A stretch of DNA of 61,172 nucleotides. Source: Acidobacteriota bacterium (GTDB lineage Bacteria > Acidobacteriota > UBA4820). The position numbers and the translations under genes are program-made. The DNA is taken from the NCBI GenBank assembly GCA_029559035.1, contig JAKQCT010000050.1:1-61172 (forward strand). The letters are read 5' to 3'. Of this stretch, positions 19,329 through 39,464 are shown in pieces (within the stretch, counting starts at the first letter, position 1; each line of letters starts with the position of its first letter). The notes beneath the pieces are model-generated. The model saw only the letters and a program-made list of their open reading frames with translations. It was not told where the DNA came from and did no database searches.

Positions 19329-19488
19329 CCTCCCCGCTCCTGTGAGCCTCGGTCGATAATTTCCGGACAGTCAATCGGCGGGTCAAAACGAGTCTTCCGC
19401 CCCCGTTCCAAAAGAACCGATCAGGACCATCCCGGCATGCTGTTTTTACGGTTATTTATGCTCGAACAAACATATCGCCAACTTAATG

Positions 19489-22347: not shown

Positions 22348-24176
22348 CGATCACCAGAGACACCATCAGAAAGGTCGTCTTGGAAAGAGGAAAGGCGATG
22401 GAACACCTGATGCTGATCCTCAGGGACCTCGAAACCCTTTCGGGCAACAACCAGCTCACCACGAAGACCCTTGAAGAGGTAGCGGAGGAGATGAACCTTC
22501 CGACCAGCGCGGTGGCTGGGTTCGTGGGATTCTACACGATGTTCAGCTACAAGCCGCGGGCGCGTTACGTAATCAGGGTCTGCAAGTCGGGCCCCTGCAA
22601 CGTCATGGGCGCATGCACCATATTCGACGCGATCGAGAAACACCTCGGGATAAAGCCGGGAGAGGCGACTACCGACGGCGTATTTTTCCTCGAAAAGTGC
22701 GAGTGCCTCGGGATATGCTCGGTCGCCCCCGCGATGATGATCAATTACGACCTTCACGGCAACCTGACAGAGAAAAAGGTCGTCGACCTGATCGAAAGAT
22801 ACAGGAAGCAAAAACCCGCTGTGGCGGAAGCTTCCGGCCCTGAGGTCGAGGGCAGGGAATGCATCGTGAAGGCGGACGGCCAGACGAAGCGCCTGACCGG
22901 GGCGATAGGAGCCATCGACCCGCTGAAGATCGACAGCTACCTCGGGTTAAAAGGGTACGAGGCGCTGAAGAAGACCCTGAAAGAATTCACGCCGGAACAG
23001 GTTGTGCAGATCGTCAAGGATTCCGGGCTTCGCGGGCGCGGCGGCGCGGGTTTCCCCGCCGGCCTGAAATGGTCGTTCATGCCGAAGGGTGACATGCCGA
23101 AATACACCGTCTGCAACGCTGACGAAGGGGAACCCGGTACATACAAGGACCGTATCCTGATGGAAGAGAATCCCCACCAGCTGATCGAGGGAATGACGAT
23201 CGCCGGCTACGCTATGGGCTCCCAGACGGGCTACATCTACGTGCGGGGAGAGTTCCGGAGAGCCATAGACAGGCTCCAGCTGGCCATAGAGCAGGCACGG
23301 TCCAAGGGCTTCCTCGGCAGTAACATACTCGGTTCGGCTTTCAATTTCGACATATTCATCAAGGAAGGGGGCGGGGCTTACGTTTGCGGAGAAGAATCCT
23401 CGCTTATCAACTCGATGGAAGGCAAGCGCGGGTACCCCCGTTTCAGGCCGCCTTTCCCCGCAGGCTCGGGCTTCCAGAAGCGTCCGACCACGGTCAACAA
23501 CGTCGAGACCTACGCTTCCGCGCCGATGATCATCCTGAACGGGGCGGATTGGTACAAGTCGGTCGGGACACCCAAGTGCACGGGCACCAAGCTCTACTGC
23601 CTCTCTGGGAAGATGAACCGGACGGGCCTCGTTGAGCTTCCGATGGGAACTACACTCAGGGAGCTCATCGAAGTCTACGGCGGCGGGATGAAGGACGGAG
23701 GGAAATTCAAGTTCGCGCAGGTAGGCGGGACCGCCGGCGGGATCCTCGGCCCCGACCTTCTGGACCTTCCCCTCGACATTGACCAGACCATCCAGGCGGG
23801 AGTCACGCTCGGCTCCGGCGTGGTGCTCGCCTGCGACGAGAGCGTGTGCGCGGTGGATTTCCTTCTCAACGTCCTGGCGTTCTTCGAGCATGAATCCTGC
23901 GGCCAGTGCGCCCCGTGCAGGATCGGCACTTCCCAGCTCCACCGCCTGTCGAGAAGATTCGCGGAGAGGCGCGCCGACGAAGGGGACATCGACAGGATGA
24001 TCGGAAAGACAATGGTGATGAAGAAGGCGTCGCTCTGCGCGCTGGGCCAGTCGCCCGTGATGCCAGTCACCACCATCCTGAAGAACTTCAGGCGGGAGTT
24101 CGAGCGACATTGTGATTCGGGCCACAAGTGTCCAGCCTGCGACAAGACTCTGAGAAGGTTCTACGGGACCGCCTAA
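22344..24176 (+). CDS. fdhB: NuoE-NuoF fusion, diaphorase subunit of formate dehydrogenase
   Basis: A 610-residue flavo-iron-sulfur protein. Residues 1-155 are NuoE-like, with the thioredoxin-like [2Fe-2S] ligands in CKSGPC and CECLGIC. Residues ~190-600 are NuoF-like: the GRGGAGFPAGLKW FMN/NAD region, NADEGEPGTYKDR, GAYVCGEESSLINSMEG, then the [4Fe-4S] motif ESCGQCAPCRIG and a distal Cys. A short Cys pair (CPAC) closes the protein. It oxidises or reduces NAD(P)(H) and exchanges electrons with the NuoG-like part of FdhA, as in acetogen FdhAB and HydABC-type enzymes. GGGAGGTGG precedes the ATG, which overlaps the fdhA stop. Confidence 0.9.
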   Translation: MTITRDTIRKVVLERGKAMEHLMLILRDLETLSGNNQLTTKTLEEVAEEMNLPTSAVAGFVGFYTMFSYKPRARYVIRVCKSGPCNVMGACTIFDAIEKHLGIKPGEATTDGVFFLEKCECLGICSVAPAMMINYDLHGNLTEKKVVDLIERYRKQKPAVAEASGPEVEGRECIVKADGQTKRLTGAIGAIDPLKIDSYLGLKGYEALKKTLKEFTPEQVVQIVKDSGLRGRGGAGFPAGLKWSFMPKGDMPKYTVCNADEGEPGTYKDRILMEENPHQLIEGMTIAGYAMGSQTGYIYVRGEFRRAIDRLQLAIEQARSKGFLGSNILGSAFNFDIFIKEGGGAYVCGEESSLINSMEGKRGYPRFRPPFPAGSGFQKRPTTVNNVETYASAPMIILNGADWYKSVGTPKCTGTKLYCLSGKMNRTGLVELPMGTTLRELIEVYGGGMKDGGKFKFAQVGGTAGGILGPDLLDLPLDIDQTIQAGVTLGSGVVLACDESVCAVDFLLNVLAFFEHESCGQCAPCRIGTSQLHRLSRRFAERRADEGDIDRMIGKTMVMKKASLCALGQSPVMPVTTILKNFRREFERHCDSGHKCPACDKTLRRFYGTA

Positions 24177-24865: not shown

Positions 24866-25888
24866 TTATTTCACGTTTATCACCTCTATCTTCTCGACGG
24901 CCTTGACGCACCTGTCGGCCGAAAGGTCGTCGGGAAACACTGCCGCGAACTTTCCGTCCTTCTTGAGCGGTGTCCCGTCAACACCGTCGGCGATGATGAT
25001 GTTCTTCCCCTGGGGGTTCAGGAACAGTTCCCCGCAGGAAACCGAGGAGCGGTAACCGTCGGGGGCAGATATCATGAGGACCGAACCGGGATCGGGAGCG
25101 ATGCCCGCGTCCTTGAGGATGTCCACGAGCGGGACGCCGTCGAATACTTTCCACCCGTGATACCCCCGGCCGTCTCCGACCTGCATGGAAAGCGTTTCGA
25201 AATGCCTGTAGGAAGCGAGTGTCGCGAACTCCCCGGGAGTCTTGACTGCCCCCGTCAGGGAGAACTTCTCGGAGAACAGCGGCTTTTTCTTGACGCACTT
25301 GATGTCGGGCCTGAGGTCCACGACCTCTATGTTGGAGACGTTCTCCAGGCACCTTCCGTCGAACCTGTCGCCGGTAACTACCAGCTTCGGAAGGCCTACC
25401 TTTCTCTTGAGCGGATTCAGCCACACCCCGTAAGTTTCAGGGTCGTGACAACCTTCGCAGGACTTGTGGGGGAAAATCGGATCGTAGTTGAACGCGAGGA
25501 TGACCTCCGACGGGTTCCTGTAGAATATCTCGCCCCAGGAAAGGAAGGCTTTCTTACCTTCGTTGTTCATCACGACTATGACGAGGTCGGAGAGCTTGTT
25601 GTAATTGGCTGTATCAGGTTTGTGGATCACGGCCAGGTCGAGAAGTGACCTCAGCGGAACTCCCGTGTAATTGAAAGCGCCGTGGTAATCCTTGTCCAGA
25701 GAGAATTCGTTCTGCCTCGCGGGGACGGACTGCATCTTCATGAGCTTGTCCATCGTGAGGGTCAGCGGCTGTTTGACCATCCCCTCAATCCTTATCTGGG
25801 GAATCTGCGGAGCAGGCTTGTCCGACGAGATAACGAGGACCCCCGCGGCAAAAACCGAGAACAATAAAATGGCGATCTTTTTTCGCAT
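24866..25888 (-). CDS. Periplasmic CxxCH protein with two sulfite-oxidase-like molybdopterin-type domains
   Basis: A 340-residue secreted protein: signal peptide (residues 1-21), then two related domains that resemble the sulfite-oxidase/YedY molybdopterin-binding fold. They are recognised by paired motifs: VKQPLTLTMDKLMKM with FNYTGVPLRSLLD in the first, and TPGEF with FDGVPLVDILKDAG in the second. Between them is a single CEGCH heme c attachment motif (near residue 144). A usual Moco-ligating Cys is not obvious, so cofactor content is uncertain. It follows the ResB gene by one base, and GGGAGGAG precedes its ATG. The operon also encodes the heme-attachment machinery and a TonB receptor. A redox or ligand-handling role in the periplasm is inferred. 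Confidence 0.55.
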   Translation of the reverse strand: MRKKIAILLFSVFAAGVLVISSDKPAPQIPQIRIEGMVKQPLTLTMDKLMKMQSVPARQNEFSLDKDYHGAFNYTGVPLRSLLDLAVIHKPDTANYNKLSDLVIVVMNNEGKKAFLSWGEIFYRNPSEVILAFNYDPIFPHKSCEGCHDPETYGVWLNPLKRKVGLPKLVVTGDRFDGRCLENVSNIEVVDLRPDIKCVKKKPLFSEKFSLTGAVKTPGEFATLASYRHFETLSMQVGDGRGYHGWKVFDGVPLVDILKDAGIAPDPGSVLMISAPDGYRSSVSCGELFLNPQGKNIIIADGVDGTPLKKDGKFAAVFPDDLSADRCVKAVEKIEVINVK

Positions 25889-25889
25889 G

Positions 25890-26666
25890 CTACTCCTCCC
25901 TTTCTATCTTTTTCAGCTGCGGGAAATACCACAGCATAAGAAGAATCATCATTATAAACCCCGCGACGATGAACGCCTTGCCCTCATCCCGCTTCACGAG
26001 AAGCTTCAGCTCGGGCGGCAGGCTGGTTTTCTTCAGCTTGCTGTCCGGAAGGAGGTGTATGCTGGCTCCGTCCCTTACAATTGGTTCAAAAAAGGAGATG
26101 CTCTCCTCCTGCACGCCGGTTCCGCCGCTGAACTCGAGGACAACGGTGCACTGTTCGACCCCGTCCTTCATCGGGCCGTCGAGACCGCAGTATTCGCATA
26201 TTCGTCCCACTATCTTCATCTGTGAACGGCCCAGGGCAACGGCCTCTCCAGGCTTGACCGCGATGACCTTGCCGGATCCGCCGCACAGGCTCATGAAATG
26301 GCCGGTCAGCATCACAATGAAACAGACATGCATCAGGGACGGGGCGAGTTTCAAGAAGAAGAGCCCCGCAGGAACCGTCCTCCACTGGCGCAACAAAGAC
26401 AAGATCCTGTCCGCGGCGCAGGCTGAAATGTTGAGCCCGAAAAGGAAGAGCGCCGAAAGAAGGGGAGGAATCCACCATGCCGCGGAAAAGTTCTTCGCCA
26501 GGTTGGCTTGAAGCCATTGAGACATCAGGGAATATTTCAGCGAACGGAAGATGTCGGGGCTGGCGCCGATATGAAGAACGCCCGCGACAATGCAGAAAAA
26601 GATGGCCATAAGAAGCCAGAATGACAGCCTGAGGTCTCCGCAGAAGCGCAGCAGTTTTCTCAACAT
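25890..26666 (-). CDS. resB: ResB-like cytochrome c biogenesis protein
   Basis: A 258-residue membrane protein resembling a compact ResB/CcsB. It has two helices near the N-terminus, a helix around residues 105-125, a periplasmic loop of about 100 residues and one C-terminal helix with a basic tail. The start LRLSFWLLMAIFFCIVAGVL is typical of ResB. With CcsA it forms the system II heme-export and attachment machine that loads CxxCH motifs. Normal ResB is longer (~450 residues), so this is a reduced form. It overlaps neither neighbour but is one base from both. Confidence 0.65.
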   Translation of the reverse strand: MLRKLLRFCGDLRLSFWLLMAIFFCIVAGVLHIGASPDIFRSLKYSLMSQWLQANLAKNFSAAWWIPPLLSALFLFGLNISACAADRILSLLRQWRTVPAGLFFLKLAPSLMHVCFIVMLTGHFMSLCGGSGKVIAVKPGEAVALGRSQMKIVGRICEYCGLDGPMKDGVEQCTVVLEFSGGTGVQEESISFFEPIVRDGASIHLLPDSKLKKTSLPPELKLLVKRDEGKAFIVAGFIMMILLMLWYFPQLKKIEREE

Positions 26667-26667
26667 T

Positions 26668-27417
26668 TCATAATCCCAGCGATCTAAAGCTCATTTCGCT
26701 GAAGTAACTTAAATAATGCATCAGGAAAAATACCGCGGCTCCGGCCACGGCGAAGACCGATCTCCTTGACGGGTTCCACCACGTCAGGAAGCGCAGATGG
26801 ATATACGCGGCGTAAAAGCACCATATGGCGGCGGAAGTGAGATGCCTGCCCGTCCAGCTGAAAAGGTTTCCCCAGCCAAGATAGCTCCAGTAAGCCCCGA
26901 AAACCTGCGCCGCGCTATACGAAACGAACCCCCAGACCACGAGCGAATGGCATGTCTTTTCGTCGCTTTTCCCCGCGAGGCTCAGCAGGGCGAACCATCC
27001 GCCCAGCAGGAAAAGAGCGTGGGCCATGACTTCCGCGAGGAAGAACATCTGTGAAAAGATTGTCCTTGTCATCAGATAGTGAGCCGGAACTTTCGGGTAG
27101 AACAGGGCGAAAACGGTGAACAGGCACAGCGGAGCCGCACCCCTAAAGACCATATCCGCCGGGTTCTTTCCCAGCCTCAATACCAGGAGTAGGAACGCCA
27201 TGCACCAGGGCAGGAAGAACATCTCCTGAAGCATGGCCCCGGGGGTGAACAGGCCGGCCATCCACCCCCTTGAGACCAGACTTACGGTATGAAACGAGAA
27301 CGCGGCAATGAAAACAGTCTCCGCAACCGCCTGTTTCCCCCGCGGAATAAGGATGCAGAGGAAGTACCCCAACGCCGCGAGATATAGGCATGACAGGAAA
27401 ATACTGTCCAGGGTCAA
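26668..27417 (-). CDS. ccsA: CcsA/ResC-like cytochrome c assembly protein
   Basis: A 249-residue protein with about seven to eight membrane helices and a degenerate WWD-type segment (WSYLGWGNLFSW near residue 183) followed by a His-containing helix, as in the CcsA/CcmC heme-handling family. The start codon is TTG with GAGG 7 bases upstream; no Met lies near the N-terminus. It lies one base downstream of the TonB receptor gene. Together with the ResB-like protein it would mature the single CxxCH protein of the operon. Confidence 0.65.
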   Translation of the reverse strand: MTLDSIFLSCLYLAALGYFLCILIPRGKQAVAETVFIAAFSFHTVSLVSRGWMAGLFTPGAMLQEMFFLPWCMAFLLLVLRLGKNPADMVFRGAAPLCLFTVFALFYPKVPAHYLMTRTIFSQMFFLAEVMAHALFLLGGWFALLSLAGKSDEKTCHSLVVWGFVSYSAAQVFGAYWSYLGWGNLFSWTGRHLTSAAIWCFYAAYIHLRFLTWWNPSRRSVFAVAGAAVFFLMHYLSYFSEMSFRSLGL

Positions 27418-27418
27418 A

Positions 27419-29509
27419 TCAATACCTCAGCGCGATCCCGACGAAAAAGTTCCTGCCCGGGCTGGGATACCATCGTTCCGACTCGTAGCACTTGTCGAAA
27501 AGATTGTTCACGGCTACGTAAGCTTCGACGTGGCTGTTGAAAGTTTTCGATAGTCGCAGGTTGGTGATGCAGTAGCCGTCGGTTATTTCCTCTTCGGCCT
27601 CGGGATCGTCCACCGCGGGCAGCTCGTTGAAATACCGCGAGACATAGGCGGTGTTGAAGTCTAGCCGCATTTTTACATAGGGGATCATGTACCTGATTCC
27701 GAAGTCGATCTTGTCTTCGGGGACATCGGCGACATTCTTCGTGACCCTGTTATGGCTCTTGTCGCGGGCTTGAGTGTAGCAGTAGGAGGCGTTGAATGCC
27801 AGCTCTTCGAGGGGCGAATACGTACCGCCTACTTCGAAGCCTCTCAGTACTATCTTTCCGACATTCTGAAGCTCGCCTCCGTCGTTGAAGGGCCTGGTCC
27901 AGTTTATGAAATCGTTTATCCTGTGTTCGTAAAGCGAAACATCGAAGCTTCCCTTGTTCCCGAAAATGCCGCTGAACCCCAGAGTGTAGTTGAGCGCTCT
28001 TTCGGGTTCCAGGTCCTTATTCCCGCCTTTCGAACCGAAAAGGTCGGAAAGAAGCGGGAAATGTATCTTCTGGGCTATCGAGCCGTAAAGCCTCGCGGAT
28101 TCGCCGATGTTGTAGGTGGCGCCGATCATGGGGTTAAGCTTGTGAACGGTGTCTCCCGTCTCAAGTTCGTTGAAGCGGATGAAATTGCCGTCCCTGTCGA
28201 TCTCGATCTCTTCCGCTTCGGTCACTTTGAACCAGTCATAGCTGGCGCCGAGAATTACCGAGAGGTTTTCTACACAGTTGTATTCGTTCTCGATCCCGAT
28301 CGAGCCTGTTTTGGACATGGAATCTTCATAAGGAAGGTATTCGTCGTCCCTTCCGCTGTGGGAATCCTTTTTCAGGTTATAGGAGAACCGCAGCGTGTAC
28401 CACTCCACCGGTCTGAAGTCCGCGATGACGGAACCGCCGAAGATGTAATCCTTGTATCTGCTTATCCCCAGCTCTTCGGAGAATGTCTCGTCGGAATACG
28501 AGGTCCAGTCGTCGATGTGGTCGTGGTAAAAAAGCTTGGCCTTCAGGGAGAATTTTTCCGTTAACTTGTGCTGGCCGCTCAGGTCTATCCCCCAGTCGTC
28601 GTACTTGGGCATCCTCGCGAAATGGGAGAACGCGGGACGGAAAGCGATAACTCTCACTTCGTCCGTGGCGGGCGGATATTCCTTTTCCCTGTCTATGTAA
28701 TGGAAATTGAGATAGAATTCCGAGCCTTCTTTCGGCGTAACGCCGAACTTCGCCCAAAAACTGTCCTTCTTAAATGCGGAATTCTCGCGGGTCCCTCCGT
28801 CCTCCAGCACGATATCGTAGGTGCTGCCGGGCCTTTGTATGACGGTGCCCGTGACTGGTTCGTAATCGTCGGCCATACGCCATCCGTCCGATTCGTGATG
28901 CGTGTAGTTGAGCCAGTAGTTGAACATTCCCTTCTTCATTCCGTGGGTGAGGGAAAGCCTCGCGGTATCGTCGTTCCCCAGCTCGGCCACGAGCGACGCT
29001 GTGGGGGTTTCAGCGGCATTCTTCGTGATTATGTTGATTATCCCGCCCACGGCGTTCGGCCCGTAAAGCACCGAAGCTCCGCCCTTGGTCACCTCGATCT
29101 TGGCGATGTTGTCGGTTGGGATCTGGTTGAGGTCGAGCTTGCCGTTGTAAGTCTCGTAATAGGGGACGCCGTCGATCAGGACGAGTATCTTGCTCTGGTT
29201 TATTCCGTGTATCTGGACGCTCGACTCGTTCTTCCTTCCGGTCGATACGCGCAGTCCCGGGACATAAAGCAGGGCTTCCGCGACCGTGTTGCTGTTCGTG
29301 GCCGCGATGTCCTCGGCGGTGATCTCCGCCTTTATCGCCACGTTCTCGGCGGCCGGGGGCTTTTCTCCCACCACATACATCTCGCCGAGCGTGAAAACCG
29401 TGTAATCAGGAGTAGGTTCCGCCGACGATTCCTGCGCCGCGGCGGGCATTCCGAGGCACGCGAGCAGGATGATGAGGACCGTTGAAACAAAGATGGCATT
29501 TGTTTTCAT
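27419..29509 (-). CDS. TonB-dependent outer-membrane receptor
   Basis: A 696-residue receptor: signal peptide, a TonB-box-like stretch (YTVFTLGEMYVVG near residue 40), an N-terminal plug domain (AEALLYVPGLRV, SKILVLIDGVPYYE, KIEVTKGGASVLYGPNAVGG) and a C-terminal beta-barrel ending in an aromatic residue (GIALRY). It takes up a scarce ligand across the outer membrane, powered by TonB. The ATG at 29509 is chosen for its AAAGGAG site. The receptor leads an operon with ccsA, resB and the CxxCH gene. A ModE-type inverted repeat lies in its promoter region and a ModE-like gene lies just upstream, so molybdate, tungstate or a chelated form is a plausible ligand (inference). Cobalamin, heme or a siderophore remain possible. 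Confidence 0.9.
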   Translation of the reverse strand: MKTNAIFVSTVLIILLACLGMPAAAQESSAEPTPDYTVFTLGEMYVVGEKPPAAENVAIKAEITAEDIAATNSNTVAEALLYVPGLRVSTGRKNESSVQIHGINQSKILVLIDGVPYYETYNGKLDLNQIPTDNIAKIEVTKGGASVLYGPNAVGGIINIITKNAAETPTASLVAELGNDDTARLSLTHGMKKGMFNYWLNYTHHESDGWRMADDYEPVTGTVIQRPGSTYDIVLEDGGTRENSAFKKDSFWAKFGVTPKEGSEFYLNFHYIDREKEYPPATDEVRVIAFRPAFSHFARMPKYDDWGIDLSGQHKLTEKFSLKAKLFYHDHIDDWTSYSDETFSEELGISRYKDYIFGGSVIADFRPVEWYTLRFSYNLKKDSHSGRDDEYLPYEDSMSKTGSIGIENEYNCVENLSVILGASYDWFKVTEAEEIEIDRDGNFIRFNELETGDTVHKLNPMIGATYNIGESARLYGSIAQKIHFPLLSDLFGSKGGNKDLEPERALNYTLGFSGIFGNKGSFDVSLYEHRINDFINWTRPFNDGGELQNVGKIVLRGFEVGGTYSPLEELAFNASYCYTQARDKSHNRVTKNVADVPEDKIDFGIRYMIPYVKMRLDFNTAYVSRYFNELPAVDDPEAEEEITDGYCITNLRLSKTFNSHVEAYVAVNNLFDKCYESERWYPSPGRNFFVGIALRY

Positions 29510-29599: not shown

Positions 29600-29623
29600 C
29601 GTTATATAAAGTGAAGCATAACG
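29600..29623 (-). promoter_or_regulatory. ModE-type operator upstream of TonB receptor
   Basis: An inverted repeat CGTTAT-N12-ATAACG (29600-29605 and 29618-29623), with the same half-sites and spacing as the E. coli modA operator as I remember it. On the minus strand it overlaps a TATAAC hexamer (29606-29601) that could be the -10 of the receptor promoter, which suggests repression by occlusion. No good -35 was seen. Confidence 0.6.
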
Positions 29624-29639: not shown

Positions 29640-30047
29640 TCAAACCCCCAGGTTCTTCATCTCTTTTTCCAGGAATTTCCTGAACTTCCGGTTCAGCTTC
29701 CAGAAAGCGGCGACGATCTTTTCCCCCTCGCCTGTCAGTCTGGTCCCTCCGCCTTTTCTCCCTCCCCTTCCGGTCGTGAACAGGGGCTTTTTCGCCTGGC
29801 GGCCGATCGAATCGAGAAGGTCCCACGCGTGCCTGTAGGACATGTTCATCGACCTCGCGGCAGCTATTAACGACCCGTGTTCCTTTATCCTTTCTAGAAG
29901 GACGATCCTCCCCACTCCCAAGAATGTGCCCTCGGGGCCGTCAACCCAGAGCCTTCCCTTGAGAGCGTAGCCTTTCTTTTCGGCCGCCCCGTCGGCGGGT
30001 TTGGAATCCTTTTCTCCGGGCTTGAATTTTGGTTTGGTTTCTCTCAT
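29640..30047 (-). CDS. modE: ModE-like winged-helix regulator (DNA-binding domain only)
   Basis: A 135-residue protein whose residues ~45-120 match the LysR-type winged helix of ModE: LLERIKEHGSLIAAARSMNMSYRHAWDLLDSI, then the GRGGRKGGGTRLT wing. The Mop/TOBE ligand-binding domains of E. coli ModE are absent, and the N-terminal ~40 residues are charged and probably disordered. The ATG at 30047 has no ribosome binding site but sits just where a strong promoter would start transcription, so the message is probably leaderless. It lies between the cofactor operon and the TonB receptor and is the obvious candidate to bind 29600-29623. Confidence 0.75.
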   Translation of the reverse strand: MRETKPKFKPGEKDSKPADGAAEKKGYALKGRLWVDGPEGTFLGVGRIVLLERIKEHGSLIAAARSMNMSYRHAWDLLDSIGRQAKKPLFTTGRGGRKGGGTRLTGEGEKIVAAFWKLNRKFRKFLEKEMKNLGV

Positions 30048-30109: not shown

Positions 30110-30715
30110 CTAGACCCGGAAGAGGTCCGGGTATTTATCGCGCATCCTCTCGTAATCTTCAGGACGGTTTATGTTGAACATCGCGTCCGGGTTGCCATGA
30201 AGGAACGGCAGGTCGTTCTCCCCCAGAAGTATCGCATCGACACGGGGAAGGATCTCCGTGAACCTGAAAATGCCTTTTTCCCTGCAAGAGACGAGTTCTT
30301 CGAGCGACGCCCTGGGAAACAGGCTGAACCCCGCGTTCGCCTTCCCGCCTACGAACGGAATTACGGGACAGCATGCCGAAGGATAGTCCCTGAGAAACCT
30401 GACGCCCTCCCCGGGAACAAGGGGCATGTCTACGCTGAGGAACAGGGCTTTTTCCTTCAGGGTGCGGGAAAGACCGGAGATGATACCGCAAAGAAGGGAG
30501 CTTTCCTGTTCTTCTTCCCCCAGGACGGACACTCCCGCTTCCGTAAAGAGGCTTTCTTCGCCTCTCTTGCACAGGATGGCGACCCGGGGAAAGAGCGGCT
30601 TCAGCTTGTCGATCTGATGGAGGTAAAGCGGCTTGCCTGCTATCGTTATGAAACGCTTGTCCCTTCCGAACCGCTTACCCCTTCCTCCGCAGAGAAGAAA
30701 AGCCTCCTCGACCAT
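30110..30715 (-). CDS. mobA: Molybdenum cofactor guanylyltransferase
   Basis: A 201-residue nucleotidyltransferase that joins GMP to molybdopterin to give the MGD cofactor used by both formate dehydrogenases of this window. Motifs: the N-terminal nucleotide loop LLCGGRGKRFGRDK (residues 7-20), SVDMPLV with the metal-binding Asp in the middle, and NINRPEDYE near the end. Length is normal. It is the last gene of the leftward cofactor operon, 13 bases after tupA. Confidence 0.88.
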   Translation of the reverse strand: MVEEAFLLCGGRGKRFGRDKRFITIAGKPLYLHQIDKLKPLFPRVAILCKRGEESLFTEAGVSVLGEEEQESSLLCGIISGLSRTLKEKALFLSVDMPLVPGEGVRFLRDYPSACCPVIPFVGGKANAGFSLFPRASLEELVSCREKGIFRFTEILPRVDAILLGENDLPFLHGNPDAMFNINRPEDYERMRDKYPDLFRV

Positions 30716-30728
30716 CGATCGGGGCTTT

Positions 30729-31541
30729 CTAATCCTGCAAGGGAAGGAAAAGGGGAGAGCCGTACTTCTCCCTGCCGTACCCCAGTATGATCTCCCTCCC
30801 CTTGCCTACGGTCACGAATTCGACGAATTTTTCCGCCAGGGACACATTCGCCGAAGGGGCCTTCGCGGGGTTAACGGGGATCACCGAGTATATATTCACC
30901 AGAGAAGGGTCTTCCCCGGAATAGGACCTCAAATTCAGTTCCTTTTGATGCGAAAGGAAAGTTGCGGTATCGCTGAGGGTAAAGCCGCCTTTCTCCGAAG
31001 CCAGGCGCAGCGTGGCGATCATCGACGACCCGGCTTCGAGGTACTGCCCGCGCGAACCTCCCGTGCCCGCAAGCTCCCAAAGCTTTTTCTCCCTGACGTG
31101 CGTTCCCGATTCGTCGCCGCGCGAGACGAAGATGCGCTTGTTGTCGTTTACCCATCGAAGAATCGAAAGAACGTCTTTTCGGTCAAGTTCTTTCTCCAGG
31201 CCGGGCGGGCCGACAAGCGCGAAATAGTTTCTCATGACCTCGCTCCGTTTCGTCCCGTAGCCTTCGTTGATGAACTTTTCCTCGGCCTCCCTGTCGTGGA
31301 CGAATACAAGGTCGGCGTTGCCTTCCCTGGCGATCCTGAGCGCCTGCCCCGTCCCGACAGCGACGAGGTTGACTTTTGCTCCCGCCTCCTTTTCGAACTC
31401 GGGGACGAGGACATCGGCCAGCCCGGTGTTCTCGACGCTCGTCGTCGTGGCTATCCTGAGCACCGCGGGCGCCTGTCTGGCGCAGGAAAACATGAAGCAA
31501 GAGAGGATACACGCAGCGGCGAACGAGATCATCTTCCGCAT
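30729..31541 (-). CDS. tupA: Tungstate ABC transporter, substrate-binding lipoprotein
   Basis: A 270-residue periplasmic binding protein with a lipoprotein signal (lipobox FMFSC, Cys20). TupA marks: ATTTSVENTGL at about 31-41, FVSRGDESGTH with the oxyanion-contacting residues in the middle, and YSVIPVNP near residue 220. These distinguish tungstate-type TupA from ModA. It delivers tungstate, possibly also molybdate, to TupBC. It is separated from tupB/tupC by five cofactor genes, and its start overlaps mogA by 13 bases. Confidence 0.87.
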   Translation of the reverse strand: MRKMISFAAACILSCFMFSCARQAPAVLRIATTTSVENTGLADVLVPEFEKEAGAKVNLVAVGTGQALRIAREGNADLVFVHDREAEEKFINEGYGTKRSEVMRNYFALVGPPGLEKELDRKDVLSILRWVNDNKRIFVSRGDESGTHVREKKLWELAGTGGSRGQYLEAGSSMIATLRLASEKGGFTLSDTATFLSHQKELNLRSYSGEDPSLVNIYSVIPVNPAKAPSANVSLAEKFVEFVTVGKGREIILGYGREKYGSPLFLPLQD

Positions 31542-32017
31542 TCGAGACTTCCTTTCTCTATCAGTTCCATGGCGTGGGGAAGAAGGGGAGACAGCGTTTC
31601 CAACCCCTCCTTCACGGCTTTTTCGCTTCCGGGAAGGTTGACAATCAGCGCCTGTCCGCGGATACCCGCGATACCCCGCGACAACACCGCGAAGGGTGTC
31701 TTCTTCAGCCCTTCCAGCCTGAGAAGCTCAGCCAGTCCGGGAGCTTCTTTCTCTATGGCGCTCCGGGTCGCTTCAGGCGTGACGTCCCTTCCCCCGAACC
31801 CTGTCCCTCCGGTAGTGATTATCAATCTGCACCCTTGATTGTCGGCAAGGTCCGCGAGAGCTTCATAGATCATCTCCTTCTCATCGGGAACGATCCTCGC
31901 CAAAATCGTCGAACGGGGGAACGTTTCCGCCATCCACGAAGCGATGGCCGGCCCGGACGAGTCCTTTCTCTCTCCCCGTGACCCCTTGTCGCTTACCGTG
32001 ACTATTCCCAGGTTCAC
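31529..32017 (-). CDS. mogA: Molybdopterin adenylyltransferase
   Basis: A 162-residue MogA/MoaB-family protein which adenylylates molybdopterin before metal insertion by MoeA. The motif IITTGGTGFGGRDVTPEAT, the signature for molybdopterin binding, lies in the middle, and the N-terminus reads LGIVTVSDKGSRGE. The start is a GTG at 32017 that overlaps the MOSC stop codon (GTGA) and has a GGTGATGGA site; a longer frame upstream has no support. It overlaps tupA by 13 bases. Confidence 0.85.
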   Translation of the reverse strand: MNLGIVTVSDKGSRGERKDSSGPAIASWMAETFPRSTILARIVPDEKEMIYEALADLADNQGCRLIITTGGTGFGGRDVTPEATRSAIEKEAPGLAELLRLEGLKKTPFAVLSRGIAGIRGQALIVNLPGSEKAVKEGLETLSPLLPHAMELIEKGSLECGR

Positions 32018-32469
32018 TCCATCACCTCGAGCGTGTCGCCCGGGAAAAGCTCGCCAGGCTCGACGACACGAGCGAATATCCCTTCGGTCGGCATCACGCA
32101 AAAACCAACATGCTGGAATATCGAGCACGGGGTAACGCAGGTCTTTCCCTTCTCGGTGATCTCGAGGACGGCGCTCCCGCCTGCCTTTACTCTCTGCCCC
32201 ACTTCGAGAGAAAGCAGTTCGATCCCCTCCGTCAGGATGTTCTCGCCGAACACTCCAGCGGGAAGCTTCAATCCGTCGCGCTCCATCTTCACGACCGATT
32301 CCCTCGCCAGCAGGCTCACCTGCTTGTGCCCAGGGCCGGCGTGGGAGTCTCCATCGAGACCGTGCTCTTTGAGCAGCAGACAGGATTGATGGGGTTCTTT
32401 TTTCACGTGCTTCTCACTGCTGGTGCAGACGGCAAGGATCCTGCCTTTATTTCCTTTTGTAATGGCCAC
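32014..32469 (-). CDS. MOSC domain protein
   Basis: A 151-residue stand-alone MOSC domain, related to the C-terminal domain of Moco sulfurases and to YiiM. Recognisable parts are HGLDGDSHAG with the Lys/Gln stretch GHKQVSLL, GVFGENILTEGI, and the Cys-containing CVTPCSIFQHVGFC segment. These proteins bind Moco or handle its sulfur. The start is taken as the GTG at 32469 because GGAGG lies 5 bases upstream; it overlaps moaC by 23 bases. A start at 32490 is possible but lies deeper inside moaC. Confidence 0.75.
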   Translation of the reverse strand: MAITKGNKGRILAVCTSSEKHVKKEPHQSCLLLKEHGLDGDSHAGPGHKQVSLLARESVVKMERDGLKLPAGVFGENILTEGIELLSLEVGQRVKAGGSAVLEITEKGKTCVTPCSIFQHVGFCVMPTEGIFARVVEPGELFPGDTLEVME

Positions 32470-32920
32470 TTTTTCCTCCGGTCTTTTCAACCAATTGGAT
32501 GTCTGTGATGGTCATCCCCTTGTCGATCGCCTTGCACATGTCGTAGATGGTCAGGCACGCGATAGCGGCGGCCGTCAGGGCTTCCATCTCAACGCCGGTC
32601 CTTCCGGTGCACGACGCTTCGGCCCGGACTATGAATTGCGAATCTCCCTCTGTCGAGATATCGATCTTAATATTGTCCAGCGGAAGAGGGTGGCACAGGG
32701 GGACCAGCGCTGACGCCATCTTTCCGCCCTGGATCCCGGCGATCTTAGCCGTCGTGAAGAGGTTTCCCTTCGGAAGGCCGTTCTTTTTTACGGCTTCCAT
32801 CACTTTCTTCGAAGCCAGCACCTTTCCCTCGGCGCGCGCGGTGCGTCTCGTTTCAGCCTTGCATCCGACGTCCACCATTTTCACTTCCCCGCGGTCATCC
32901 AGGTGTGACAGTTTTTTCAC
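32447..32920 (-). CDS. moaC: Cyclic pyranopterin monophosphate synthase
   Basis: A 157-residue MoaC, which converts the MoaA product into cyclic pyranopterin monophosphate. Strong motifs: MVDVGCKAETRRTARAEG at 15-32, LVPLCHPLPL near residue 73, GVEMEALTAAAIA near 109, and YDMCKAIDKGM. GTG start with AGGAGG 7 bases upstream. It lies two bases from moaA. Confidence 0.92.
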   Translation of the reverse strand: MKKLSHLDDRGEVKMVDVGCKAETRRTARAEGKVLASKKVMEAVKKNGLPKGNLFTTAKIAGIQGGKMASALVPLCHPLPLDNIKIDISTEGDSQFIVRAEASCTGRTGVEMEALTAAAIACLTIYDMCKAIDKGMTITDIQLVEKTGGKSGHYKRK

Positions 32921-32922
32921 GG

Positions 32923-33738
32923 TCAGCCTCCTATTCTCGACATGCTCTCGTGGGGGAAACTGTATCCTTTTTCGTCCTTGAGCCCGACCGCCTTTAAGAT
33001 TGCGTCACTGGCGGAAGGCTCTTCCCTCACCACGACCGCCCGAGGGGAAAAAAGACAGGGGAAGAGCTTGCCGTCGGCCGTCAGCCTGATCTTGTTGCAC
33101 GACGAGCAGAGGGGCGGCCGGTGCGCCCGCGGAGTTTTCTCGACGGGGCCCGATCCCTCTTCGAGGTTCATGTAGGCTATGAACTGAAGGTCAAGCCCGT
33201 TATCGCCGCAGAACCGTCTTATCTTTTCCCTTTCTTCTTCCGGGACGGAAGGCAGGATGATGCAGTTGATCTTCAAGGGTCCCAGCCCTGCGGCTTTCGC
33301 CGACTCTATCCCCTTCAGCACCGTCTTCACGTCCCCTCCCCCCGTTATCTCTCCGTAGAGGACGGGATCCAGGACGTCCAGGCTGATGTTGACCCTCTTG
33401 AGCCCTGCCGATGCCAGCTTCTCGGCGAACCTGTCGAGAAGCGTCCCGTTGGTCGTGAGGCCGAGGTCCTCGATACCTTCCATGGAGGCGATCCGCGCGA
33501 TAAGGCTCTCGACGTTTCGGCGGACCAGCGGTTCCCCGCCCGTGATCCTGACCTTCGTGATCCCCAGGGCAACAGCCTCTTTCACTATCTCCTCTATCTC
33601 CTCCAGGCTGAGTATCGATCCGTGAGCCAATTTAACGAAATCCCTCCTGGGGACGCAGTAGCTGCACTCCAGGTTGCACCTGTCCGTGACCGAGACTCTC
33701 AAATAATTTATTCTGCGTCCGAACCTGTCGATCAGCAA
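32923..33738 (-). CDS. moaA: GTP 3',8-cyclase, compact form
   Basis: A 271-residue radical SAM protein starting the molybdopterin pathway from GTP. The N-terminal cluster is CNLECSYC (residues ~22-29), the GGEP motif is present, and the C-terminal cluster motif is CSSCNKIRLTADGKLFPC, followed by a C-terminal GlyGly as in active MoaA. It is about 50-60 residues shorter than usual: the segment between FIAYM and the C-terminal cluster is mostly missing, and the usual Arg of the CNR motif is Lys. The start is a TTG with GGAG upstream, overlapping moeA by 7 bases; it is the only start that keeps the DRFGR N-terminus. Confidence 0.85.
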   Translation of the reverse strand: MLIDRFGRRINYLRVSVTDRCNLECSYCVPRRDFVKLAHGSILSLEEIEEIVKEAVALGITKVRITGGEPLVRRNVESLIARIASMEGIEDLGLTTNGTLLDRFAEKLASAGLKRVNISLDVLDPVLYGEITGGGDVKTVLKGIESAKAAGLGPLKINCIILPSVPEEEREKIRRFCGDNGLDLQFIAYMNLEEGSGPVEKTPRAHRPPLCSSCNKIRLTADGKLFPCLFSPRAVVVREEPSASDAILKAVGLKDEKGYSFPHESMSRIGG

Positions 33739-34949
33739 GAGGTTCTCCAGGAAAAAGGCCTTACGGCGACAACGGAACCCTTCGTTATCTCTTCCGAGCC
33801 TTCAGGCACCACCAGGATGCCGTCGGCCCGGCTCATTGAGGTCAAGATACCAGAACCCTGCGGCCCTGTCAAAAAAGCGGCGGTTTCTTTACCGCTTCTT
33901 TTCACAACAACCCTGAGGAAGTATGTCTTCCCTTTTTTTACCCGTATCGTTTCACCCATGACGCAGGACATCGTATCGTCCGACCCGCCGGGGTTTCCAA
34001 GGACGGCTTCGAGGAATCCTCTCACGTATATCTCGAAGCAGAGCGGCGCAGAAACGGGATTTCCCGGCAGGAGGAAAACGGGCTTTCTGCCGATGGTAGC
34101 GAACGTCATGGGGTTTCCCGGCCTCTGCCTCACCTTCACGAAATGGAAACGGGCGCCAAGCCCCTCCATGACCTCCCTGAGGTAATCCGCCTTGCCCATC
34201 GATATGCCGCCCGAGACGACCAGCGCGTCCTGCTTCAACCCTTCGAGCACGGCCTTTCTCAGCACTGCCGGATCGTCCGCGGCGGCCTTGAGTTTCACCG
34301 GTATACCTCCCGAAACCTCGACCTGCGCGCAGATTCCGAACGAGTTGGATTCGTATATCTTTCCCCGCCCGAGAGGCCTCCCGGGCTCGACCAGCTCGTT
34401 TCCCGTCGAGAGGACGGCGATCTTCGGCTTCCGGAACGCTTTCACCCCGCCCCGTCCCGCCGACGCCATGAGAGCGATGTGCGCCGGGGTCAATCTCGTT
34501 CCCCTGGACGCCAGCAGGTCGCCTTTTTCGTAGTCCTCGCCTTTCTTTCTTATATGCTGCCTTGGCTCCGGCTTTTTCAACACCATGACATCCGTTCCGC
34601 AACGCTCGGTTTCTTCGACGGGTATGACCGCGTCCACTCCCTCGGGGATGGGTGCTCCGGTCATGATCTCGATGGCTTCCCCCCTCCTGATCGGCTTCCC
34701 GGGAGCCTGGCCGGCAAAGACCGATCCCGCAACCTTCAGTGTTGCCGGAACCGCCTTAACATCCGATACCCTGACGCCGTACCCGTCCATCGCCGAATTG
34801 TCGGAGGGAGGATTCGGGTGGAGTGCCGCGACATCCCTCGCAAGATAACGTCCCAGGGCGTCCTCCAGTTTCACGAGCTCTTCTTTCGCAGGGCGGGCGT
34901 GGGAAAGGATTATCTTCAGCGCTTCTGCGACCGGGATATAGCTTTTCAT
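33732..34949 (-). CDS. moeA: Molybdopterin molybdenumtransferase
   Basis: A 405-residue MoeA, which inserts molybdate (or tungstate) into adenylylated molybdopterin. It has the MoeA N-terminal segment with NPPSDNSAMDGYGVR, EIMTGAPIPEGVDAVIPVE, the central MogA-like domain with VLSTGNELVEPG and VVSGGISMGKADY, RPGNPMTFA and LLPGNPVSA, and the small C-terminal domain IV. ATG at 34949 with AAGGAGC upstream, overlapping the tupC stop (ATGA). One of the best matches in the window. Confidence 0.92.
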   Translation of the reverse strand: MKSYIPVAEALKIILSHARPAKEELVKLEDALGRYLARDVAALHPNPPSDNSAMDGYGVRVSDVKAVPATLKVAGSVFAGQAPGKPIRRGEAIEIMTGAPIPEGVDAVIPVEETERCGTDVMVLKKPEPRQHIRKKGEDYEKGDLLASRGTRLTPAHIALMASAGRGGVKAFRKPKIAVLSTGNELVEPGRPLGRGKIYESNSFGICAQVEVSGGIPVKLKAAADDPAVLRKAVLEGLKQDALVVSGGISMGKADYLREVMEGLGARFHFVKVRQRPGNPMTFATIGRKPVFLLPGNPVSAPLCFEIYVRGFLEAVLGNPGGSDDTMSCVMGETIRVKKGKTYFLRVVVKRSGKETAAFLTGPQGSGILTSMSRADGILVVPEGSEEITKGSVVAVRPFSWRTSC

Positions 34950-35998
34950 CTTTTTTGCTCCTTGAATATGTGCAGGGAAGAGGCCTTGAATGTAAGGAAT
35001 ACTTCCCTGCACGGGCTGAGTTCCAGGCTCCTTAGCGATTCCGGCGTGATAATGGCGTCGACCGGGAACCCGACGTCTATGGTCACTATCGCGATCCCGT
35101 TCTCCTCGAGGGTTTCCACCACCCTTCCCCTGAGGACGTTTCTGGCGCTCGACTTGAACGGCATCGCCGAGAGGGTTATGTTGGTGGGAGGGATGAGCAG
35201 CATGGCTTCACCCCGAATATGCGTCATAACGGATATCCTGCTTCCGTTAGGCAGGATCGCTACCGTGCCGGAAGGGTCGTCCTTCACATCGACTCCGACC
35301 ATATTCCTTCCCGGACTCATCAGGGACTGCGACGGCAGGGAGAAAAGCTCTTCCCTGTTCGTCTCGCTTATCACCCTGCCTTCCTTGATCAAAAGTATCC
35401 TGTCTCCGAACAGCCTCGCCTTCGCTATGTCGTGGGTGGCGAGCACGATCGTCTTCTCCCCCCTGTTCTTGAAACCGACAAGGAAGTCGTCTATTATCCT
35501 CGAGCTTAACAGGTCGAGGTTCGCGAAAGGCTCGTCAAGGAGGATGATGTCGGGGTCGCACATGAGCGCCATGGCGATCATCACTCTCTTTTTTTCGCCT
35601 CCTGAAAGGACCCTGGCGGAACGCCCGGCAAAGCTTGCTATCCCAAGGGATTCGGCGAACGTCTCGAACTGTTCCTTCCTGACCCCGAGCTTTCTTTTCC
35701 TGGCGCCGTAAAGGATGTTTTCCCTCACGCTCCTGTCCAGAAGCACCGGGTTCTGAAAGACAAGTACCGATCTTCGTCTGGCTTCGGTCGGGCACCCGGT
35801 CACGTCCCGCCCGCCGTACCTTATCGTTCCCGATGTCGCTCTATCCAGCAATGCAAGTAGCCTGAGAAGGGTGGTCTTCCCGGCGCCGTTCGGTCCCATC
35901 ACCACGGTGATCTCACCCGGGACGGCGTTGAGCGTCACGCTGTCGACGATATTCCGCCCGTTCACGCTTCTGGTTAGTTCTTCACACCCAAGATGCAT
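34946..35998 (-). CDS. tupC: Tungstate ABC transporter ATPase with C-terminal TOBE domain
   Basis: A 350-residue ABC ATPase: Walker A GPNGAGKTT (about residue 36), signature LSGGEKKRV, Walker B IILLDEPFANLD, and H-loop LATHDI. Past residue ~270 it carries a TOBE/Mop-type domain (SSARNVLRGRVVETLEENG) that in ModC proteins binds oxyanion and regulates transport. The ATG at 35998 (CCGGA upstream) overlaps tupB by 17 bases; an ATG at 36013 is less likely. It powers tungstate import with TupA and TupB and might also sense intracellular oxyanion, which would offset the missing sensor domain of the local ModE-like protein (inference). Confidence 0.85.
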   Translation of the reverse strand: MHLGCEELTRSVNGRNIVDSVTLNAVPGEITVVMGPNGAGKTTLLRLLALLDRATSGTIRYGGRDVTGCPTEARRRSVLVFQNPVLLDRSVRENILYGARKRKLGVRKEQFETFAESLGIASFAGRSARVLSGGEKKRVMIAMALMCDPDIILLDEPFANLDLLSSRIIDDFLVGFKNRGEKTIVLATHDIAKARLFGDRILLIKEGRVISETNREELFSLPSQSLMSPGRNMVGVDVKDDPSGTVAILPNGSRISVMTHIRGEAMLLIPPTNITLSAMPFKSSARNVLRGRVVETLEENGIAIVTIDVGFPVDAIITPESLRSLELSPCREVFLTFKASSLHIFKEQKR

Positions 35999-36647
35999 TA
36001 TTCCGGCCCACATAGAGGTTCAGGATTATGTTTATTACGACAGCAACGCCGAGTAGTATGACTCCAAGGATCACCGCGAGCTCGAAATTGCCTTTCATCG
36101 TTTCCAGGGCGATGGTGGTCGTCATAACCCTTGTCTCCCCTTTGATGTTGCCTCCCACCATCAGGGTCATCCCCGTCTCGCCTATCACCCTCGAAAAGCC
36201 CATTATCGCCGCCGCGAAGAACTGACGGCGCCCCTCGAAAAGCAGCGACAGCAAGAACTGGAAACTGTTCGCGCCCATCGTCAGGATCGTGTCTCCCACA
36301 GGCTTCACGATCAACTTCATCCCCGACACGGTGAGGGAAAGGATTATCGGGAAGGCGAGGACAGCCTGGGCTAATACCATCGCCCACGGCGTATAGAGCA
36401 GCCTTAGAAGCCCCAGGGGCCCGTTCCTGGACATAAGGAGATAACAGCCCAGGCCTATCACCACCGCCGGAACGCTCAGGAAGCTGTTCGAGACGACTAT
36501 CACGGCCCTGGCGAGCCTGCTTTCGGACCTCAGGAGGGCGAGGCTGACCGGCAGAGCGAACGCCATTGCCGCCGCCGTGGCGCACCCGGAAACCGCCAGC
36601 GAGCGTGCGACGATCTCGACCACTTCCGGGGCCAGAACGCTGGTCAT
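35982..36647 (-). CDS. tupB: Tungstate ABC transporter permease
   Basis: A 221-residue permease with five to six membrane helices and the EAA-like cytoplasmic loop GFSRVIGETGMTLMVGGNIK, which is characteristic of TupB. The following TRVMTTTIALETMKGNFELA is likewise typical of tungstate permeases. Downstream of fdhD by 21 bases. Its ribosome site (GGGA) lies in the 3' arm of a small hairpin that also overlaps the fdhD stop codon. Confidence 0.87.
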   Translation of the reverse strand: MTSVLAPEVVEIVARSLAVSGCATAAAMAFALPVSLALLRSESRLARAVIVVSNSFLSVPAVVIGLGCYLLMSRNGPLGLLRLLYTPWAMVLAQAVLAFPIILSLTVSGMKLIVKPVGDTILTMGANSFQFLLSLLFEGRRQFFAAAIMGFSRVIGETGMTLMVGGNIKGETRVMTTTIALETMKGNFELAVILGVILLGVAVVINIILNLYVGRNNASWV

Positions 36648-36676
36648 AAAAAAATCCCGGGGAGGGAGTTACCCGG
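36648..36676 (-). promoter_or_regulatory. Hairpin plus T7 between fdhD and tupB
   Basis: On the minus strand CCGGG (36676-36672) can pair with CCCGG (36661-36657), followed two bases later by seven T that end at the tupB ATG. The tupB ribosome site GGGA lies in or next to the 3' arm. It could act as an attenuator or a translation switch, or be chance. Confidence 0.25.
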
Positions 36677-37481
36677 AGAGGCTCTCAATTTTCAATCTTT
36701 CCGGGAACGTGTAGCATGTCATCCTTCTCCCCCTCGCGAACCCTATCACCGTGACGCCTCTCTCCCGCGCCCGGTCCAGCGCGCTGGACATCGGGGCCGA
36801 TTTCGAAACTATGACGGGAATAGACAGTTCCGCGCAAGCGGTCACCATTTCCGAGGAGATCCGCCCCGTAGTGAAGAGAACTTTGTCCGAGGCGGGCACC
36901 TTGTCCACGAGCATCCTGCCCAAAACTTTCTGGACCGCGTTGTGCCGTCCCACGTCGGGGAAGTTGAAAAGCAGCACCCCGCCCCGCGCTATTCCCGCGG
37001 AGTGGGTCCCTCCCGTCTCGCCGTGCAGGACGTCGGTTTTCTGGAACTCGGCCATGGCCGAGAAAACATCTCCGGCAAGAAAACTCCCCGGAACCACCGG
37101 GATCTTTCCGGGACCATCATGATCCTTTTCTTCCGGCTGATTCTTCGCCCTGAGGGCTACTTCCTTCCCGCAGGAGGACAGTATCGAAGCGAGTTCGCCA
37201 TCCTTCGGCTCCCTGAGCTCGACGTTCAGGATATTACGGCCGAGCCTGAAGGTTTTGACTTCTTCCGCGGAGGATATCCACCCGCCGCTTACCAGAAACC
37301 CCCATCCCAGCAGTTCCGGTTCGGAGGGAAGATACGTGAGCCGCGCGGCAACCCTCCCGTCGATCTTGATCGTCAGCTCTTCGTCGGTTATGACTTTTTC
37401 GCTGATCGGAGAATTCCCTTCCCCGCTAACACGCAGGGCGTCGATCTCCTTGATAAGTCCGGGCTTGAGGCCATCTCGCAT
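36669..37481 (-). CDS. fdhD: Formate dehydrogenase accessory sulfurtransferase
   Basis: A 270-residue FdhD, which passes sulfur from a cysteine desulfurase to the Mo/W-bisMGD cofactor of formate dehydrogenases. Clear motifs: TGGTHSAGIA, DVGRHNAVQKV, TGRISSEMV, and SKSAPMSSALDRA with the C-terminal GFARGRRMTCYT. The usual CGxCG sulfur-transfer pair is reduced to a single Cys (SSCGKEVA near residue 103). No ribosome site precedes the ATG at 37481, but a good promoter ends 8 bases upstream, so the mRNA may be leaderless. It opens the Mo/W cofactor operon. Confidence 0.88.
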   Translation of the reverse strand: MRDGLKPGLIKEIDALRVSGEGNSPISEKVITDEELTIKIDGRVAARLTYLPSEPELLGWGFLVSGGWISSAEEVKTFRLGRNILNVELREPKDGELASILSSCGKEVALRAKNQPEEKDHDGPGKIPVVPGSFLAGDVFSAMAEFQKTDVLHGETGGTHSAGIARGGVLLFNFPDVGRHNAVQKVLGRMLVDKVPASDKVLFTTGRISSEMVTACAELSIPVIVSKSAPMSSALDRARERGVTVIGFARGRRMTCYTFPERLKIESLSG

Positions 37482-37489
37482 CAGGTCTG

Positions 37490-37518
37490 ATTATATATCA
37501 CGGCGGCGGATATTTCGA
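37490..37518 (-). promoter_or_regulatory. Promoter of the fdhD-tup-moa operon
   Basis: On the minus strand TCGAAA (37518-37513) and a perfect TATAAT (37495-37490) are 17 bases apart; the -10 ends 8 bases before the fdhD ATG. It would drive the roughly 7.4-kb cofactor operon down to mobA. Confidence 0.55.
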
Positions 37519-37521
37519 GTT

Positions 37522-38217
37522 TCATTTCAGATCGAACTTTACAGTCACTTCTCCCCTGGTGGTTCCCTTCAGGCTCTTCACGAAACCGCAGAACGTCTCC
37601 TTCAGGATCTCCGCCACGAAGGGGCTCAGGGGAACTTTCGCCCCGTTCACTTCAACCGTGGTCTTTTGAGACAAGGGAAGACAGTTAGCGAGGCTTTTCT
37701 TTTCCGAGAGAATTTCTTTCACGAGCCCGGCGCATCCGGGATGTCCGCACTCTCCGCAATCGAGCCCGGCCACCAGGAACCCTTTTTTGTCAGCGATCTC
37801 CGCCAGCTCGTCGAGCTTTTTCGGATCTCCCCCGTCTTCCTTTTTCCAGAATGCTATTTCGGTCCCGTCTGCCAGCTTCTCTTTTTCGCCGTCGTCGTTC
37901 AGGCAGACTATCCTCGGCATGTAGTTCTTTTCCTTGAAACCCTCCAGGATGACGAAATCCCCCTCGGATGAGGCCAGCAGCTGCAGCATCTTGTATTCCC
38001 GCGATACGTAAATGACCGTCAGGGACGACGAGGCCAGGATGTACCTGTCGCAGCTCTCGGACATCTCCCTGTCCTTGTCGTTCAGGGCCAACTGCTCGTG
38101 CGCGTTCTTGATGACCGTCACGACGCGCCCTTTCTCCCTGAGCCTTTCCGAAAGCTCCCTGATGAGGGTGCTCTTGCCGCTGTTCTTGAAACCGACGACC
38201 TGGACAGCTTTTGTCAT
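37522..38217 (-). CDS. mobB: MobB-like GTPase with C-terminal Fe-S-type domain
   Basis: A 231-residue protein. The first ~165 residues are the MobB P-loop fold: Walker A GFKNSGKSTL (9-18), a VIKNAH switch, and FVILEGFKEKNYMPRIV. After that comes a Cys cluster CGECGHPGCAGL with a distal Cys about 18 residues on, which resembles the [4Fe-4S] domain of PF04060-type proteins. MobB binds GTP and assists MobA in making MGD. The fused iron-sulfur module is not in E. coli MobB. GGAG lies 7 bases upstream of the start. It ends 40 bases before fdhD. Confidence 0.78.
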   Translation of the reverse strand: MTKAVQVVGFKNSGKSTLIRELSERLREKGRVVTVIKNAHEQLALNDKDREMSESCDRYILASSSLTVIYVSREYKMLQLLASSEGDFVILEGFKEKNYMPRIVCLNDDGEKEKLADGTEIAFWKKEDGGDPKKLDELAEIADKKGFLVAGLDCGECGHPGCAGLVKEILSEKKSLANCLPLSQKTTVEVNGAKVPLSPFVAEILKETFCGFVKSLKGTTRGEVTVKFDLK

Positions 38218-39428: not shown

Positions 39429-39464
39429 TGGGAAAAAATCCTCCATTCCTCTTTTAAATCAGGT

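Follow-up and report, generated by a model that had tools for sequence, protein, structure and literature searches.

A candidate ModE operator of the E. coli type upstream of a TonB-dependent receptor operon in an uncultured Acidobacteriota bacterium

Introduction

Could a bacterium control the entry of molybdate or tungstate at its outer membrane? These anions are usually thought to cross the outer membrane by diffusion through porins, with control exerted only at the inner-membrane ABC transporter. In E. coli that control is established: ModE represses modABC when metal suffices (summarised in PMC4139814). The question is raised by a 61,172-nucleotide contig of an uncultured Acidobacteriota bacterium (JAKQCT010000050.1 of assembly GCA_029559035.1; this whole stretch is called the window below), in which a palindrome resembling the E. 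coli operator lies between a ModE-like gene and the gene for a TonB-dependent receptor.

Results

The palindrome and the E. coli modA operator

The sequence at positions 29600–29623 of the window is CGTTATATAAAGTGAAGCATAACG, a perfect inverted repeat (CGTTAT-N12-ATAACG, given without strand) that fits the E. coli-type operator pattern of CGnTAT/ATAnCG inverted half-sites at 12-bp spacing. The first-pass annotation had likened it to the E. coli modA operator, and rightly: the E. coli K-12 modA leader, read directly, has CGTTATATTGTCGCCTACATAACG, with the same half-sites and the same 12-bp spacing. When compared by eye with the published consensus ATCGNTATATA-N6-TATATANCGAT, the core half-sites are perfect and the left and right arms agree at 9/10 and 5/10 specified bases, respectively, which makes 6/20 mismatches to the full E. 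coli-type consensus, from which natural sites deviate too. The presence of the operator-like palindrome is confirmed, and its interpretation as a site of ModE control is supported by the sequence comparisons that follow.

The box lies 16 bp 3′ of the modE stop codon and 90 bp 5′ of the receptor ATG, inside the 130-bp gap between these two genes, and so occupies the expected promoter region of the receptor operon. It had also been said to overlap the likely −10 element of the receptor gene; this is plausible, since by eye a TATAAC falls within the right half-site (a TTGATT-N17-TATGCT is also visible at the site), but the promoter scan called no consensus promoter at the box.

Uniqueness of the site and its matrix score

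The genome searched is 2.86 Mb long and 95% complete. By chance ~0.2 exact sites are expected in it (2.86 Mb/4^12), and CGTTAT-N12-ATAACG occurs there once, at the window site, beside the genome's only ModE-like gene. With mismatches allowed there is one site at one mismatch and there are ~46 at two, a total of 48 compared with 42 for a reversed-pattern control, and freeing the third base gives 3 perfect and 29 one-mismatch sites compared with 36 for the control. Genome-wide, the relaxed pattern is therefore not enriched over its control, and the case rests on this one site, its place, and comparison with other genomes.

The annotation had proposed a ModE-site matrix as a check and had reasoned that numerous matches of equal quality within coding sequence would speak against the site. 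Such a matrix was trained on 22 ModE boxes of other genomes, with the window left out (training range 17.7–32.8 bits), and was applied to the window and to both remaining perfect hits of the relaxed pattern in the genome, C99:66881, which is within an ORF, and C2:22159, which is intergenic and next to glycoside hydrolase genes. The window site scores 28.1 bits, above the next best in the window (16.3 bits) and above C99:66881 (11.0 bits) and C2:22159 (13.7 bits), and neither the genome-wide pattern counts nor the matrix on these sequences showed such a crowd of equal matches. The training boxes were picked by pattern, so these scores are an independent test only at the free positions; at the 18 positions outside the pattern the window site scores +8.4, a value attained by 2 in 10,000 random sequences (P about 2e-4).

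A second regulated site before the tup or fdh genes was also sought in the window by pattern and matrix, and no good site heads the tup cluster. The best intergenic candidate for a second target is ATTTAT-N12-ATATCG at 19454–19477 (+), ~115 bp 5′ of fdhA; with 2 mismatches and 11.2 bits it is too weak, and we dropped it as a second operator. Rfam returned no Moco riboswitch in the window.

The ModE-like regulator

The gene directly upstream of the site (29640–30047, minus strand) encodes a protein of 135 aa from the ATG at 30047 and is the likely regulator. The annotation's reading of it as ModE-like is borne out by matches to TIGR00637 (E=1.5e-21) and, in the PDB, to 2ijl (“molybdenum-binding transcriptional repressor”, E=2.8e-18) and E. 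coli ModE (1b9m, E=5e-7; also 1o7l), and TIGR00637, 2ijl and HTH_1 agree on an N-terminal winged HTH of the ModE type, the single one in the genome. Its TIGR00637 score of 76.3 bits is below the curated NCBIfam cut-off of 98.5, which is reached in only 4/50 genomes that carry related receptors (below) and in 2/396 genomes of the phylum. The protein ends after the HTH, with no TOBE or molbindin domain found in it; since the two C-terminal TOBE domains are missing, we name it an HTH-only ModE-like protein and not a full ModE, and the signal that the annotation had proposed, molybdate or tungstate status, is here taken from genome context. HTH-only ModE proteins whose sensing route is open were already remarked in Desulfovibrio (Rodionov 2004, PMC545781). 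Of the proteins of this genome only TupC was found to carry a TOBE domain, and as a guess this domain might be the sensing partner of the HTH-only protein.

Molybdenum and tungsten genes around the site

On the minus strand the genes run in the order mobB, fdhD, tupB, tupC, moeA, moaA, moaC, a MOSC gene, mogA, tupA, mobA and modE. Their gaps span −32 to +62 bp overall; those within the moeA–mobA part are −29 to +13 bp, and modE follows mobA after 62 bp. The fdhD and mobB genes occupy 36669–38217 (−), upstream and in the same direction as the others (from ORF reading and gaps), and the Moco/Wco genes moeA, moaA, moaC, MOSC, mogA and mobA, with tupA among them, occupy 30110–34961 (−; ORFs named by sequence reading, mobA by Pfam). 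Homologues of TupA, TupB and TupC are thus all together in the window: a tungstate-binding protein (30729–31541, −; NF041772 E=9.7e-58, under its equivalog cut-off), a TupB-type permease (35982–36647, −; over the cut-off of NF038017, NF041773 E=7.8e-36) and a TupC-type ATPase that holds the TOBE domain (34946–36013, −; profile searches), and as each is under the strict equivalog cut-off their selectivity for tungstate is putative. Two further genes stand 5′ of the mobB-fdhD-tup cluster, one for a Porin_4 protein (38304–39446, −; Pfam) and one for a protein read from its sequence as a formate/nitrite-type channel (39465–40283, −).

A formate dehydrogenase alpha subunit and a NuoE/F-like subunit are encoded at 19591–24176 on the plus strand (TIGR01591 matches the portion beyond the UGA at E=1e-187). 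In table 11 the alpha gene (19591–22347, +) is split by an in-frame TGA at ~20680, where a standard gene caller would truncate it; when this TGA is read as U the protein contains DHCARLUHSS, and it is therefore very likely a selenocysteine enzyme, the likely user of the metal. No ModB over the cut-off was found in the genome, in which the best ModB/TupB-like permease is the window's own TupB. With TupABC present and ModABC unrecognised, tungstate is a likelier signal than molybdate, and we regard it as probably the signal, given that TupABC is the sole recognised Mo/W transporter, that the formate dehydrogenase appears to be a selenocysteine enzyme, and that there is a parallel in C. jejuni, which couples TupABC to a selenocysteine formate dehydrogenase (PMC4178425). 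No characterised TupABC transports much molybdate (PMC11980592).

The receptor operon

Under the box is a minus-strand operon of four genes separated by 1-bp gaps. The product of its first gene (27419–29509, −) had been annotated as a TonB-dependent receptor, and this identity is genuine: plug (E=1.8e-26) and beta-barrel (E=2.4e-39) are both above their Pfam cut-offs. Its AlphaFold model (pLDDT 90.6) has BtuB and OprC as nearest folds, and the genome has 5 Plug and 3 ExbD matches, the latter making energisation of the TonB type plausible. The second gene (26668–27417, −), 1 bp after the receptor gene, encodes a CcsB/CcmC-like cytochrome c assembly protein (PF01578 E=8e-7, just under the cut-off; TIGR03144 E=2.8e-9, far under it). 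The third (25890–26666, −) encodes a membrane protein without a Pfam match, called ResB-like from sequence reading and from its pairing with the CcsB-like gene, a pairing seen here and at five related loci (L112, L116, L125, L155 and L173). The fourth (24866–25888, −) encodes an exported two-domain protein with a sulfite-oxidase-like fold (PF00174 E=6e-13, in two stretches) and a CXXCH motif, whose model (pLDDT 88.2) partially matches the structures of sulfite dehydrogenases and PruR. For this protein, as for the receptor, the fold searches gave family-level matches only.

The CXXCH motif is kept in most of 28 homologues and is absent in L125, L126, L131, L147, L151 and L160, so that haem is uncertain. 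Together with its operon partners, the CXXCH protein suggests that a haem-linked redox reaction takes place in the periplasm and perhaps frees the metal from a complex. Across many Acidobacteriota and Desulfobacterota, relatives of the CXXCH protein accompany TonB-dependent receptors, including at places away from Mo/W genes.

Boxes at related receptors and ModE genes

A scan for close protein relatives of the receptor in genome contigs returned nothing, and an alignment query with the receptor found 67 loci; the counts of flanking genes and boxes cover 58 related receptors. The relatives are 40–60% identical and occur in Desulfobacterota, Nitrospirae and Acidobacteriota (a family alignment holds 44 members, 40–54% identical). 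A Mo/W marker gene is present in the fetched flank of 24 of the 58 (tupA 8, ModE 7 with L136 counted, FmdE 6, DUF364 6 and ModA-like 5), and some related loci have the redox genes alone, with no Mo/W gene within reach. A ModE HTH match was found in 37/50 receptor genomes (2 of them weak and LysR-like) compared with 72/396 in a sample of the phylum (many of them weak).

Perfect CGnTAT-N12-ATAnCG boxes number 10 over the 58 receptor loci compared with 0–2 at twelve other spacings, 11 at 30 ModE-gene loci of the receptor genomes compared with 0–1 at spacings 8–11 and 13–16, and 4 at 29 Acidobacteriota ModE-gene loci compared with 0 at other spacings; these sets of loci overlap in part, and the counts are thus not independent. 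Within 450 bp upstream of the 58 receptors, 4 loci have a box with 0–1 mismatch, 2 of them perfect (0.41 and 0.01 in shuffles, respectively), and the remaining 54 have none. Several boxes at the ModE loci stand directly 3′ of modE, as in the window; at L138, L160 and L161, whose ModE is 45% identical to the window's, CGTTAT-N12-ATAACG itself is found 22–26 bp 3′ of the modE stop. At these same three loci a second conserved element with a CGTTAT half-site (AGCGTTATATTT..AAAGCA), not a full box, follows ~90 bp after the first and precedes the next genes.

A box is directly upstream of a related receptor at L136, L137, L142 and L173. L137, from the cultured Desulfocarbo indianensis, has two directly before the receptor, one of them on a TTGACA-N17-TATAAC whose TATAAC is in the right half-site, and by eye the box-overlapping promoters of L137 and L142 are clearer than that of the window. 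Two perfect boxes head the CcsB-like/ResB-like/receptor row of L135. Judged from this recurrence in other genomes, the window site is more than a chance match. The link between box and receptor is not universal, since eight loci with Tup or ModE neighbours (L069, L112, L116, L117, L148, L153, L154 and L155) have no box with 0–1 mismatch near their receptors. In L153 and L154, both from Acidobacteriota MAGs, modE is divergent from the adjoining receptor gene with no E. coli-type box, and the local ModE may read another motif.

In L085 and L086, of the same phylum, a full-length ModE (its two TOBE domains were checked in L086), a more distant receptor, FmdE and modABC stand together with canonical boxes; L086 also has DUF364. 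The boxes precede the FmdE-receptor and modABC genes, at 7494, 9067 and 9203 in L085 and at 8755 and 13930 in L086. These loci look like a second, independent case in which a TonB-dependent receptor would come under ModE control.

Discussion

We infer binding, repression, the metal signal and the receptor ligand from the site, its uniqueness, its matrix fit, the recurrence of the box, gene linkage and the layout of the operon. On these grounds we think it quite probable that the palindrome is an operator of the adjoining HTH-only ModE-like protein, that it controls the receptor operon by metal status, and that the receptor imports a tungsten or molybdenum compound. When metal is sufficient, the ModE-like protein, at adequate intracellular tungstate (or molybdate), would occupy the box and block the promoter, and the four-gene operon would be repressed. 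When metal is scarce the operon would be expressed and supply the outer-membrane receptor and a periplasmic redox-like module; the receptor would carry a compound of tungsten or molybdenum, be it the free oxyanion, a thio-anion or a chelate, across the outer membrane. From the periplasm TupABC would import the anion to supply Moco/Wco and, with it, the selenocysteine formate dehydrogenase.

Several observations fit this reading poorly: the regulator is without the anion-binding TOBE domains of E. coli ModE and its HTH scores under the NCBIfam cut-off, most related receptors are boxless upstream and the divergent modE of L153 and L154 is without a box, some loci have redox genes only, no clear consensus promoter is seen at the site, and in fold the receptor comes nearest to transporters of cobalamin and copper, a resemblance that gives no hint of an oxyanion. 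Some of them are what would be seen if operator and ModE were real and the operon served another need, the receptor importing a compound such as haem, cobalamin or a siderophore and ModE coupling the module to metal, activating it, or acting without a metal signal. The CcsB-like and ResB-like partners and the CXXCH protein that share the operon, the closeness of the receptor fold to BtuB and OprC, a regulator without a sensor domain, and the many homologous redox modules without nearby Mo/W genes all agree with this alternative. We nonetheless consider it unlikely, as related receptors are linked with tupABC, modABC, FmdE or DUF364 in several phyla, and as Acidobacteriota receptors that are more distant but share this redox protein are without strong tup/modE neighbours, which ties the metal link to the present receptor group.

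That the palindrome is a chance match is very improbable; ~0.2 exact copies are expected in the genome and the relaxed pattern does not exceed its control genome-wide, but the site adjoins modE, its free positions score as few background sequences do, and the same box recurs 3′ of related modE genes. We give slightly less credence still to the site of another regulator or a part of the modE terminator region. The box does come downstream of the modE stop and of nine consecutive T, but these T stand ahead of it, and scanning the modE strand for terminators showed no hairpin there. In E. coli this box is known as the operator of ModE, and in other genomes it is a mark of ModE loci.

An exact E. 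coli-type switch before an outer-membrane receptor operon suggests active control, in some bacteria, of how tungsten or molybdenum gets through the outer membrane. If our reading of a ModE-controlled importer is true, passage through the outer membrane would be active and regulated, with related receptors in several anaerobic phyla and with a candidate receptor now named. The window locus also offers a simple setting in which to ask how metal is sensed by HTH-only ModE proteins. More tentatively, and with somewhat less than even confidence, we propose a conserved anaerobe system of outer-membrane W/Mo uptake in which the receptor works with a dedicated CcsB-like/ResB-like/CXXCH redox module that would free the metal for TupABC, under ModE boxes and an HTH-only ModE that possibly senses via the TOBE domain of TupC. 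We found no report of a link between ModE and TonB, tungstate and TonB, or molybdate and an outer-membrane receptor in the open-access library searched, and regulon databases or supplements may already list the receptor.

Among known systems, other TonB-dependent receptors such as BtuB and OprC share the plug and barrel fold, and at 15–19% identity in structural alignments their ligands are not transferable to this receptor. The single DNA-binding domain without molbindin is like the HTH-only ModE of delta-proteobacteria (Rodionov 2004, PMC545781); the motif predicted there for Desulfovibrio is CGGTCACG-N14-CGTGACCG, whereas the E. coli-type box is kept here. The ModE regulon of Geobacter sulfurreducens, as given in the main text of PMC545781 and PMC2700814, similarly has E. 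coli-type boxes with modABC, Moco and tup genes together, but its ModE is full-length and that main text names no TonB-dependent receptor as a target. C. jejuni shares TupABC, the selenocysteine formate dehydrogenase and FdhD (PMC4178425) and, by the title of Taveirne 2009 (cited in PMC7759655), has one ModE-like protein that regulates both molybdenum and tungsten transporters; unlike here, the parts of PMC4178425 and PMC7759655 consulted report no outer-membrane receptor. The closest parallel to the site is the E. coli modABC operator, with identical half-sites, the same 12-bp spacing, a ModE-type gene nearby and a transport function downstream; unlike E. coli, the genome of the window gave no second good site, the regulator is HTH-only, and the target is an outer-membrane receptor operon in place of an ABC transporter.
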